Assembly (NCBI GenBank): GCA_937873695.1
Contig: CALMYL010000020.1
Span: 1 to 64,000 of the forward strand
Direction: 5' to 3'
Length of the DNA: 64,000 nt
DNA from: an uncultured Ignavibacteria bacterium
GTDB taxonomy: Bacteria > Bacteroidota > Ignavibacteria > Tepidaquicellales > OLB5
In this document: positions 53,750-57,681 of the stretch, in pieces
How positions within the stretch are numbered: the first letter of the stretch is position 1
Layout of the letters: every line of letters starts with the position of its first letter
Made by a program: the position numbers and the translations under genes
The notes under the pieces: generated by a model
The model's database searches: none
What the model saw: the letters and a program-made list of their open reading frames with translations, nothing else
What the model was told of the DNA's origin: nothing

Positions 53750-54856
53750 ATGAATATTACAGACCAATCATTTAAAAATTCAATAGTATCAAAAGCCAGA
53801 GAGCTTGGTTTTTTTGCATGCGGATTCGCTAAGTATGAGGCGCTTGAAGCAGAGTCCGAAAAGCTGCGCAAATGGCTGGATGAAGGCAAACAGGCTGATA
53901 TGGCATGGATAGAGCGCGGATTCGAAAAGCGAAAAGACATCCGGAATATAATGCCTGAAGCAAAGAGCGTAATTTCGCTTGCTTTCAATTATTACACTCC
54001 CTTTGAGCATGACGAAAGCAAACCCAAAATTTCACGGTATGCATGGGGTAAGGATTACCACAAAATTTTAAAGAAGAAGCTGAAGGAGTTGTGTGAGGTA
54101 ATTGTGTTGACCTCACCCCCTACCCCTCTCCTAAAAGGAGAGGGGAGCAATACCTCTGAGATTTTGGCTGAATCTAAAAGTTTGAATAACATCTCACTAC
54201 CGGCTCCTGAATTGAAAGTAAAGGAAAGAATTCTATTGAAGAGTTATGTTGATGACGGTCCTGTGATGGATAAAGTATGGGCTCAAAAATCAGGTATTGG
54301 ATGGATGGGTAAGCATACTAACATAATTAATCCCGATTACGGTTCATGGTTTTTCCTGAGTGAAATTATTACCAATATTGATTTCGGGACTTACGATACA
54401 CCGATTGAAGATATGTGCGGAAGCTGTACGCTGTGCATTTCAGCCTGTCCAACCCGTGCAATTGAAAGCGAATATGTTGTAGATGCCAATAAATGTATAT
54501 CATATCAGACGATTGAAAATCGCGGTGATATTCCACCTGAAATTAACTTAGACGGCTGGATATTCGGCTGCGATGTATGCCAGGATGTGTGTCCGTATAA
54601 CTCACCTAAGTATAATCACGTGACTGAGGAAAGGGGATTTTGGCCATTACAGGAAATATCAAAGATACTTAAAGATGAAAGAAATGTAGAAGAATTGAAA
54701 GCGACCTCCCCCAACCCCCTCACCGAGAAACCGATTCAGGGACTTACCAAGGAGGGGACTTTAGAGCTTACAGAAGAACAGTTTGCAAAAACCTTCGCAG
54801 ACTCACCTGTTAAACGCACAAAGTATAAGGGCTGGAAGAGGAATTTGGCGAGATAA
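53750..54856 (+). CDS. queG: Epoxyqueuosine reductase with two in-frame repeat insertions
   Basis: QueG reduces epoxyqueuosine in tRNA to queuosine using a corrinoid and two [4Fe-4S] clusters. The clusters are clear: CGSCTLCISACP (with the following C) and CDVCQDVCP. The corrinoid-domain motifs SGIGWMGKHTNI and YVDDGPVMDKVW are also present. I take the ATG at 53750 as start because the earlier ATG at 53726 lies in a dispersed repeat. Two insertions do not belong to the family: VLTSPPTPLLKGEGSN and following (about residues 119-158 from this start, DNA about 54105-54222), and ATSPNPLTEKPIQGLTKEG (about 318-336). Both are translated CCTCTCC / GGAGAGG-type repeats. They lie between conserved blocks, so the enzyme may still work. 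Confidence 0.92.
   Translation: MNITDQSFKNSIVSKARELGFFACGFAKYEALEAESEKLRKWLDEGKQADMAWIERGFEKRKDIRNIMPEAKSVISLAFNYYTPFEHDESKPKISRYAWGKDYHKILKKKLKELCEVIVLTSPPTPLLKGEGSNTSEILAESKSLNNISLPAPELKVKERILLKSYVDDGPVMDKVWAQKSGIGWMGKHTNIINPDYGSWFFLSEIITNIDFGTYDTPIEDMCGSCTLCISACPTRAIESEYVVDANKCISYQTIENRGDIPPEINLDGWIFGCDVCQDVCPYNSPKYNHVTEERGFWPLQEISKILKDERNVEELKATSPNPLTEKPIQGLTKEGTLELTEEQFAKTFADSPVKRTKYKGWKRNLAR
54110..54147. repeat. In-frame palindromic repeat in queG (first)
   Basis: CCCCTCTCC and GGAGAGGGG arms around TAAAA form a hairpin (about 54124-54145) after ACCTCACCCCCTA. It encodes TSPPTPLLKGEG in the queG frame, a typical translated form of this repeat. Confidence 0.85.
54702..54760. repeat. 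In-frame repeat in queG (second)
   Basis: ACCTCCCCCAACCCCCT (from 54704) and the complementary-type AAGGAGGGG near 54749-54758, with a CCGATTCAGGG segment between. It encodes TSPNPLTEKPIQGLTKEG. Confidence 0.75.
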
Positions 54857-54895
54857 ATTAATATAAAATGAATATATTTAATAAATTAATATTTT

Positions 54896-56035
54896 ATGGA
54901 TAGAATAAAAATATTGACACTTCTGAAGGAAGGGGCTAAAACTTGGAACAAATGGCGCAAAGAAAACCTTGATGTTAAGATTGACTTAAGAAATGAAACT
55001 TTTAAAAAAAGTGATTTTTCGAAAATGCAATTGGATAACATTGACTTTACTGATTCTTTGATTTTAGATTCCGATTTCACTTCTAGCAAACTGACTAATG
55101 TGTCATTCAAAGATAGCTATATTGAAAATTGTAATTTTTCTAATGCGCTAATAAAGAACTCTAATTTTAAATTATCTCACTTAGTTTCAAGCAAATTTAT
55201 TTTCTCAAATATAAATAATTGCATTTTTGATGAAACATTCATCAATGAAACCATTTTCGATAATACCGAACTTTTGGAAAGTGATTTGAGCAATTCTTTA
55301 ATCAGTTTTACAATATTCAATTCTACTGATTTGGCCAAGAGTAATTTCCTTAAATCACAATTTAGCTACAATATTTTCGCAGACATAGATTTAAGTCAGG
55401 TTACCGGATTAGAAACAGTCATTCACGCTGCACCATCTACTATTGGAATAGACACTTTGTTAAATTCTGAAGGCAATATTGATGTTAAATTTTTGAGTGG
55501 AGCAGGAATTCCAGAGAATATAATTAGCAACTTTAAGAGTATCTTTGGCAACTCATATCAATTTTATTCCTGTTTTATTTCATATAACGAAAAAGACGGA
55601 AAATTTGCAAAAAAAATCTATGATAATTTAACGAATGCAGGAATAAGATGTTGGTTTGCCCCTGAAAACTTAAAGGCTGGAGATCCAATAGTGACTAGAA
55701 TACAGGAAGCAATGAACCAGTACGATAAACTTATCTTAATACTTTCAGAAAATTCTGTAAGTAGTAAATGGGTACAAAACGAAATTGAATTTGGACTACT
55801 TAAGGAGAAAAGGACAAATACAAGTTTTTTGTTTCCAATAGTACTGGATAAATCAATAAACGATTCTAGTTCTTTTGTTATTCAAGAAATGTTATCGAAA
55901 AGAGTATATATTGATTTTTCAGATTGGAAAAATGAAAATTTATTTAAGAATTCACTATCAAAATTAATACGGAGCTTAATATTAAGCGTTGCAATCGAGG
56001 CAGAGAAGGTCAGGAGAGATAAATTTGAAAAATAA
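54896..56035 (+). CDS. Pentapeptide-repeat/TIR-domain protein
   Basis: A 379-residue two-domain protein. Residues about 27-170 are a pentapeptide-repeat helix: Phe recurs every ten residues (41, 51, 61, 71, 81, 91, 101, 111, 121, then 141, 151, 161) in an A(D/N)xx-type pattern such as DFTSS, NFSNA, NFKLS. A linker with APSTIGIDTLLNSEG and FLSGAGIPENII leads to a TIR domain (about 222-365): CFISYNEKDGKFAKKIYDN, RCWFAPENLKAGDPI, LILSENSVSSKWVQNEIEFG. The likely NADase glutamate is Glu296, four residues after Trp292. The DNA is distinctly AT-rich compared with queG upstream. The next gene overlaps its end. TIR enzymes commonly cleave NAD or make signalling nucleotides in bacterial immunity; a defence role is inferred. 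Confidence 0.85.
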   Translation: MDRIKILTLLKEGAKTWNKWRKENLDVKIDLRNETFKKSDFSKMQLDNIDFTDSLILDSDFTSSKLTNVSFKDSYIENCNFSNALIKNSNFKLSHLVSSKFIFSNINNCIFDETFINETIFDNTELLESDLSNSLISFTIFNSTDLAKSNFLKSQFSYNIFADIDLSQVTGLETVIHAAPSTIGIDTLLNSEGNIDVKFLSGAGIPENIISNFKSIFGNSYQFYSCFISYNEKDGKFAKKIYDNLTNAGIRCWFAPENLKAGDPIVTRIQEAMNQYDKLILILSENSVSSKWVQNEIEFGLLKEKRTNTSFLFPIVLDKSINDSSSFVIQEMLSKRVYIDFSDWKNENLFKNSLSKLIRSLILSVAIEAEKVRRDKFEK

Positions 56036-56714
56036 TTTACAAGCCTTTCAGGCCTTTCAAGTATTTATGAATTATCCATATGATGAAGATTTTGAGCCTT
56101 TGTCAAATGCTATACATTTTGCAGTAATTGCGGCTGGTTTAATTCCCGTATGCGCCAAAGACTTGAGTATGCCAGATAAATCAAGACTCGATAATTTAAT
56201 AGAAGCAATAACTAATTGTAATTATTCAATTCATGATTTTTCGAAGAGTAAAGGAGAAGGTTCTGATAATTTTGCTAGGTTTAATATGCCCCTAGAAATG
56301 GGCATGGCTGTTTTTCACGCATTGTATACTCAAAGAATAAAACACAGATGCGCTTTTTTTGTTTCAACCCCCCATGATTATCAAAAGTTTGCTTCGGATT
56401 TGTCGGGCTTAGATCCTATATGTCATAATAATAATGAAATAACATTATTGACAGAAACATATGAATGGCTGCGAAAGATCAATCCACCTCTTTTTTCCAA
56501 TCTAGCAATTACTGTTGTCAGGGATAAATATTTATCATTTAAAGAAGAATTAAATAATATCGTAGGGTCAAGCAGTATTAATACACCCACCCATGATGAA
56601 ATTCAAGAATTGATGTATTGTATTTGTTCAAAAGAAAAATGGTGGGGATGGAGGGACAGTCCTGTCGGCCTGCTTGAATTTCCTGTTTTACCCCTAACCT
56701 ATAAGACAAAGTGA
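56025..56714 (+). CDS. Deoxyribosyltransferase-fold protein coupled to the TIR gene
   Basis: A 229-residue protein. I choose the TTG at 56025: GGAGAG (56013-56018) lies six bases upstream and the gene overlaps the TIR gene's end by 11 bp, so the two are translationally coupled. An ATG at 55989 in the same frame has no such signal. Motifs: VFMNYPYDEDFEPL (13-26), SRLDNLIEAI (53-62), SIHDFS (68-73) and RFNMPLEMGMA (85-95). The order N.P.D..F, SIHD, then N.P.E.G matches a family of uncharacterised proteins near defence genes, related in fold to nucleoside 2-deoxyribosyltransferases and TIR-like enzymes (the P-x-E-x-G being the catalytic-glutamate motif by analogy). It may process a nucleotide signal made or used by the TIR protein; unproven. 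Confidence 0.72.
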   Translation: MKNNLQAFQAFQVFMNYPYDEDFEPLSNAIHFAVIAAGLIPVCAKDLSMPDKSRLDNLIEAITNCNYSIHDFSKSKGEGSDNFARFNMPLEMGMAVFHALYTQRIKHRCAFFVSTPHDYQKFASDLSGLDPICHNNNEITLLTETYEWLRKINPPLFSNLAITVVRDKYLSFKEELNNIVGSSSINTPTHDEIQELMYCICSKEKWWGWRDSPVGLLEFPVLPLTYKTK

Positions 56715-56782
56715 GCTTTTCTGAATTAAAAGAGCTTTAATTGTAACCAGTAATAATCCGAAAATAAAGCTCATTTTCAACT

Positions 56783-57010
56783 ATGCCAAAATCGAAATTC
56801 CTGAAAATATTCGCGCTGATAGAGATGCTTTCGGCAACGATATTCCTTGCGCTTGCGCTGATATTTTTCCTTTCGCGAGATAGCATGGGCGGCGATGTAA
56901 TGATCGCGGCAATTTTCGGATTTATCGGTGTATGTTCATTCATAGCAGCTCCGCTGCTTATGAAATTCGCTAAAAAAGCTGAAGCAGAAGAACAGAAAAT
57001 CAAACATTAA
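56783..57010 (+). CDS. Small two-helix membrane protein
   Basis: A 75-residue protein with two membrane helices (about 8-29 and 38-60) and a charged tail (KKAEAEEQKIKH). No recognised family. It is followed 12 bp later by a DUF3592-like membrane protein on the same strand, so they are probably one transcript. Function unknown. Confidence 0.6.
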   Translation: MPKSKFLKIFALIEMLSATIFLALALIFFLSRDSMGGDVMIAAIFGFIGVCSFIAAPLLMKFAKKAEAEEQKIKH

Positions 57011-57525: not shown

Positions 57526-57560
57526 TTACAATTGACAGTTGATAATTGATAATTGTTGAG
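57526..57560. repeat. TTGACAG-type short repeat
   Basis: AATTGACAGTTGATAATTGA and a further TAATTG unit, matching the pattern at 6004-6078. Next to it lie a TCCGGCAAAGCCGGA palindrome (about 57562-57576) and CCTTACTCCGCAGGAGGAAGG (about 57580-57600). Confidence 0.7.
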
Positions 57561-57681
57561 TCCGGCAAAGCCGGACGAAACCTTACTCCGCAGGAGGAAG
57601 GTTAATTGTTATTTAATAATTGACCCCGCTGTCACACTCCCCTTTCACTCATTGTCTAATAATACAAATAACCATAAAACT

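Follow-up and report, generated by a model that had tools for sequence, protein, structure and literature searches.

An uncultured Ignavibacteria bacterium carries a pentapeptide-repeat/TIR gene that overlaps a second gene, coding for a protein with a deoxyribosyltransferase-like fold, and the pair raises the question of whether these genes form a conserved system and, if so, what it does. The window analyzed here is the 64,000-nucleotide stretch of contig CALMYL010000020.1 that contains the pair, and an initial annotation from the sequence proposed a compact defence or signalling module.

Organization of the locus

The TIR gene (coding for P0001) and the gene following it (gene 2, coding for P0002) overlap by 11 bp, and gene 2 has its own Shine-Dalgarno-like sequence 6 nt ahead of a TTG start, both as initially annotated; the TTG start is credible because relatives begin at about the same place (Table 1). 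The GC content over the pair is 0.28 to 0.35, compared with 0.38 to 0.43 in queG and 0.35 to 0.42 in the downstream genes, so the pair is indeed more AT-rich than its flanks. It is set among housekeeping genes, outside any defence island, and is flanked by queG and small membrane/DUF4440 genes. A short dispersed repeat (SPPTPLLKGEG-like in translation) is present at positions 54105-54167, 54700-54770, and 57542-57614 of the window; two of these copies are in frame inside queG, and many more occur throughout this genome and its genus.

Table 1. Features of the TIR/gene 2 locus, in window coordinates
Feature	Coordinates	Strand	Evidence
Pentapeptide-repeat/TIR gene (P0001, 379 aa)	54896..56035	+	ORF, Pfam, alignment, AF2 model
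DrHyd/NDT-like gene 2 (P0002, 229 aa, TTG start)	56025..56714	+	ORF, AlphaFold model, fold search, trees
Shine-Dalgarno-like GGAGAG for gene 2, within the TIR gene	56013..56018	+	sequence
Accessory insertion (~1.9 kb) separating queG from the gene at 56783	54857..56782	.	same-genus genome alignment

The pair is accessory DNA

Genomes of the same genus have queG and the 56783 gene adjacent, with the pair missing between them. In G397 and G405, 38 bp separate alignment blocks that lie 1.9 kb apart in the window (54848 and 56783), and in G398 the same flanking blocks are 109 bp apart, also with the pair missing. The pair is thus accessory DNA, and the small genes at 56783 and 57023, considered as further members, are rejected because they adjoin queG in relatives without the pair. 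P0002 has no match in 12 other genomes of the genus, and matches to P0001 there are weak and partial only. Relatives of P0002 are present in 8 of 294 genomes of the class, including that of the window, which is the only one within the genus. No mobile-element ends were identified at the inserted segment, but these sequence comparisons favour a recent insertion in the window over repeated losses among its relatives.

P0001 is a pentapeptide-repeat TIR protein

P0001 is organized with short N-terminal helices, a pentapeptide beta-helix at residues ~28-216, and a TIR domain at ~223-367, and Pfam, the AF2 model, and alignment all bear out the proposed combination of a pentapeptide helix, a TIR domain, and a putative catalytic Glu296. 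The repeats match PF13599 (E=2e-13; PF13599/PF00805 above cut-off), and the modeled helix resembles MfpA, HetL, and Qnr (Z 21-22), a predicted right-handed beta-helix as in pentapeptide repeat proteins, including MfpA and HetL. The TIR domain (PF13676/PF01582) is recognized both by sequence score, with a TIR_2 match to residues 227-346 (E=1e-24; 87.7 bits, cut-off 28), and by fold, the best structural match of the modeled domain (223-367) being the SPARTA TIR (Z 15.7). Glu296 aligns with the TIR catalytic position and is invariant among 16 aligned pentapeptide-TIR homologues, and the domain retains the motifs of catalytic TIRs.

Pentapeptide-TIR genes are frequent in the phylum and usually solitary, and P0001 shares 29 to 36% identity over its full length with this common family (up to 44% in the TIR part). 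None of 20 loci of the family has a gene 2 neighbour, and the idea that the family generally brings gene 2 with it is therefore rejected. In one genome (L091:5910-10211), a tandem array of three genes encodes pentapeptide-type proteins, of which two clearly have TIR domains.

P0002 belongs to an unnamed family with a predicted TIR/deoxyribosyltransferase fold

Sequence searches leave P0002 without a family name: Pfam returns only a sub-threshold match to DUF4062, NCBIfam, PADLOC, and PHROGs give no family, no NDT family of Pfam or NCBIfam matches at E<=1, and a search of the sequences of solved structures yields nothing meaningful. An AlphaFold model was built from an 18-sequence alignment (pLDDT 76, pTM 0.78). 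In VIA its best match is DNPH1 (Z 14.3, 127 residues, 2.5 A), with the SPARTA TIR (12.9), the RUN1 TIR (12.7), CMP N-glycosidase (12.1), and NDT (11.8) following; this match barely covers the C-terminal helices (~160-212). Foldseek also ranks TIR-STING, SPARTA, and NDT entries high, though its E values do not go below 1e-3 (best E 1.3e-3). The NDT effector of retrons is absent among the structural neighbours, an absence that excludes nothing. The predicted structure and the fold searches thus agree with the deoxyribosyltransferase fold first suggested for the second protein, and scores of 14.3, 12.9, and 11.8 against DNPH1, TIR, and NDT place the model in the TIR-DrHyd-SLOG clade with its Rossmann-like fold. 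As judged from the model, P0002 is an uncharacterised enzyme-like protein with the fold shared by DNPH1, NDT, and TIR.

Relatives of P0002 are present in 34 of 395 genomes of the phylum, and an alignment-based scan of GTDB species contigs recovers at least 549; single-sequence pattern scans of genome and viral contigs found nothing, and tblastn gave no match in phages. Thirteen positions (F14, P18, D20, R54, H70, D71, R85, N87, M88, P89, E91, S124, and D125) are invariant in 22 relatives from tblastn-type searches, a set free of motif-based selection. In a larger set, chosen in part by patterns including the NMPxE motif, nearly all of these positions are still invariant, and R54, D71, R85, N87, M88, P89, E91, S124, and D125 are invariant in 102 of 102. 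Glu91, the putative catalytic residue, lies within the invariant NMPxExG, which we take to resemble the ExG of NDT and DNPH1, a comparison that reaches Glu91 only. P0002 itself is divergent, ~31% identical to its nearest relatives and on a long branch (2.6-2.9).

The family is large and spread across many phyla, with some members on conjugative plasmids (examples of relatives are L031, L035, L046, L051, L053, L126, and L171). By eye, two Chlorobiaceae genes (L049:920-2356 and L054:3397-4782) have a gene 2 domain fused to an FGE-like (sulfatase-modifying-factor) domain, and the gene after each fusion starts with a DUF4062-like sequence. At L047:7716-11439 a gene 2 relative and the beginning of a DUF1156/HmaB-like methylase gene overlap (HmaB in PADLOC, E 1e-142).

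Gene 2 is usually preceded by a small basic gene and in one subgroup by a TIR gene

Among family members without a TIR gene, a mechanically picked 45- to 140-aa ORF lies directly upstream in 73 of 116, compared with 85 of 486 control genes. These small proteins have a median net charge of +14 per 100 aa, as could be expected of proteins that bind nucleic acids; some are DUF2188 proteins, and Lys-rich ones also occur. Gene 2 with a small Lys-rich or DUF2188 gene constitutes an uncharacterised two-gene unit found in many phyla.

The TIR-linked form is also conserved. With near-identical Chlorobiaceae loci counted once, there are 15 distinct TIR/gene 2 pairs besides that of the window in four phyla (ten in Acidobacteriota, two each in Thermodesulfobacteriota and Actinomycetota, and one in Chlorobiaceae). 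The expectation that the two genes would be conserved together is therefore borne out at the level of TIR plus gene 2, but the version with a pentapeptide-TIR is seen only in the window. The TIR-linked sequences and the window fall on one side of a careful 51-sequence tree (support 97/93), and in a 100-sequence tree TIR linkage is a single change. In the 51-sequence tree window gene 2 comes out on a long branch as sister to the TIR-linked sequences, a placement that the trees cannot separate from a nested one. The residues typical of that group (GEG77-79, A84, H107, and V113) are all present in P0002, and H107 is found in 19 of 19 TIR-linked members and 1 of 82 others. Over 129 distinct members, 19 have both the motif and an upstream TIR gene, 109 have neither, and 1 is discordant, namely a Chlorobiaceae sequence whose motif has a small deletion. 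A newly found motif carrier, L223, is also accompanied by a TIR gene and is a near-copy of L125, whose partner TIR includes a TPR part.

The window's TIR belongs to a different family from the usual partners. In a TIR tree it groups with pentapeptide-TIRs, apart from 18 partner TIRs (support 99), and a profile of Chlorobiaceae partner TIRs does not detect it at E 1e-3, whereas a pentapeptide-TIR profile does so at 2e-47. Because of this split and these profile results, the TIR-gene 2 layout is seen to be kept with a TIR from another family, and from the sequences the window's partner has apparently been exchanged. The picture would be the same if events ran in another order, with gene 2, its usual TIR already lost or never present, capturing a pentapeptide-TIR.

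Neighbours of the related pairs vary. The Chlorobiaceae pairs have a SLATT_1/DUF4231 gene coding for a two-TM protein 43 to 66 bp downstream, and some, as examples only, are near Septu PtuAB. The L120 pair is followed by a gene for a two-TM pentapeptide protein, an instance of pentapeptide repeats turning up again in the module, in this case in trans. Close to a Chlorobiaceae TIR/gene 2/SLATT operon, L038:9177-10352 codes for a fusion of a TIR with an FGE-like domain of GldK/PvdO type.

Relationship to known systems

TIR, DrHyd, and SLOG domains form one clade of NAD-targeting domains, in which DrHyd enzymes are described as NADase effectors (PMC9503650). The conflict effectors described for this DrHyd/TDS clade by the Aravind group (PMC9503650, PMC7159879, PMC8195603) offer a setting for gene 2, which fits by predicted fold, a single conserved Glu, and partner swapping; those systems are mainly STAND/VMAP fusions, however, and a stand-alone TIR+DrHyd pair was not found in these papers. 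TIR-like NADases of the DUF4062 type function in defence against phages (PMC13174449), and DUF4062/Swarozyc shares with the pair a TIR/NDT-related fold, one conserved Glu, an accessory distribution, and modular partners. It differs in that the pair is made up of two distinct genes, the partner being a canonical TIR, and gene 2 is rejected as a member (PF13271, 14.2 bits against a cut-off of 24.7). Retron-Eco1 defends through NAD+ hydrolysis by an NDT-like effector (PMC12405507), and retrons of type II (Ec86/Eco1) resemble the pair in having an effector of NDT-like fold regulated by partner genes, with NAD+ hydrolysis a presumed parallel. The pair has no reverse transcriptase or msDNA gene, gene 2 lacks a PADLOC match, and with queG and small membrane/DUF4440 genes as neighbours a retron with an NDT effector is rejected.

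Thoeris (ThsB TIR plus ThsA) is likewise a two-gene module of a TIR and a second nucleotide-related protein, but here the second protein is DrHyd/NDT-like rather than SIR2-SLOG or Macro-TM, and the window TIR is only weakly like ThsB; membership is rejected, as the TIR's neighbour is P0002 and there is no ThsA-type match in PADLOC or Pfam. Structurally, the window TIR matches that of SPARTA TIR-APAZ best, but the window has no short Argonaute or APAZ and a pentapeptide helix is present instead. Hailong (HalA) is rejected at 19.5 NCBIfam bits against a cut-off of 250. The open-licence literature searched describes no TIR+DrHyd gene pair, although prior mention elsewhere is possible, and the early impression that no named system has this exact composition holds for PADLOC, NCBIfam, and that literature.

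A proposed mechanism and its alternatives

The pairing of TIR with gene 2 is real and conserved by sequence comparison, involves an unnamed protein family, and has the appearance of an undescribed defence module directed at NAD or nucleotides. We infer its enzymatic activity, substrate, activation route, and anti-phage role. Our leading reading, held tentatively and at a little less than even confidence, takes the pair for a two-gene conflict module that is mobile and regulated by the TIR protein, with gene 2 as a nucleotide-cleaving executioner and the upstream protein as an exchangeable regulator. Gene 2 would be the constant part, most likely an N-glycosidase with Glu91 as a putative catalytic residue, which once switched on would cleave NAD+ or another nucleotide and so stop growth of the infected cell. 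For most family members the regulator would be a small basic protein (DUF2188, for example), and for one subgroup a TIR protein; in the window the pentapeptide-TIR may have replaced that subgroup's usual TIR. The pentapeptide-TIR would detect a trigger and oligomerise, make an ADP-ribose-type signal, or both, thereby activating gene 2. The assignment of roles follows from the active sites: Glu91 is replaced in 0 of 102 relatives, whereas 3 of the 15 distinct partner TIRs have another residue in place of the TIR Glu (Ser in L111, Val in L116, and Asp in L128), a contrast that makes gene 2 the likelier obligatory enzyme and the TIR the likelier sensor or activator. Both proteins may act, however, given that no part of the active-site signature is missing from the window TIR.

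A division of labour closer to Thoeris is possible but rather unlikely; here the TIR would make an ADP-ribose-type signal or deplete NAD+, and gene 2 would be a receptor, regulator, or hydrolase of that nucleotide. Glu296 and the catalytic-TIR motifs of the window, the Glu kept in 12 of 15 partner TIRs, and a two-TM protein 3' of the pair in two lineages, a plausible downstream effector, are all in keeping with it, as are inactive TDS-clade domains that can serve as nucleotide sensors (PMC9503650). It accounts poorly for the three partner TIRs without Glu and for a gene 2 Glu and surrounding polar residues that are invariant even in many relatives without a TIR partner. That gene 2 is instead a toxin neutralised or repressed by the upstream small basic or TIR protein, as in toxin-antitoxin systems, is improbable: the enrichment of short ORFs ahead of non-TIR members and the charge of their products fit such an arrangement, but those ORFs were selected mechanically, the TIR partners mostly retain their catalytic Glu, and a 379-aa pentapeptide-TIR would be an unusual antitoxin.

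It is very unlikely that the two genes are chance neighbours, a solitary pentapeptide-TIR gene having landed ahead of an unrelated gene 2. Such genes are indeed widespread in the phylum and mostly stand alone, but this one overlaps gene 2 and contains its ribosome-binding site, relatives lack both genes together at a single site, and it is exactly the TIR-partnered subgroup to which gene 2 belongs. Least probable is a housekeeping enzyme of nucleotide salvage or sanitation (DNPH1/NDT-like) with a regulatory TIR, to which the top structural match to DNPH1 might point; the sporadic distribution (one genome in the genus), the empty site in relatives, the conjugative plasmids carrying family members, and the varied partners all speak against it.

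Significance

The TIR/gene 2 unit brings together, as a conserved pair, two proteins from one NAD/nucleotide-processing superfamily, combining a swappable partner with an invariant enzyme-like core whose family is unnamed in Pfam, NCBIfam, PHROGs, and PADLOC. Our mechanistic reading extends with about even confidence to the suggestion that a TIR and a DrHyd-like protein constitute an undescribed class of anti-phage system, in which a constant nucleotide-cleaving enzyme would be controlled by sensors that are encoded upstream and can be exchanged (small basic protein, TIR, TIR-TPR, and pentapeptide-TIR), the window being a natural TIR swap. The pairing lets one ask which glutamate, Glu296 or Glu91, carries activity and whether TIRs interchange as activators, and the wider family with its small basic partner, present in many phyla, is a candidate for a further two-gene system.
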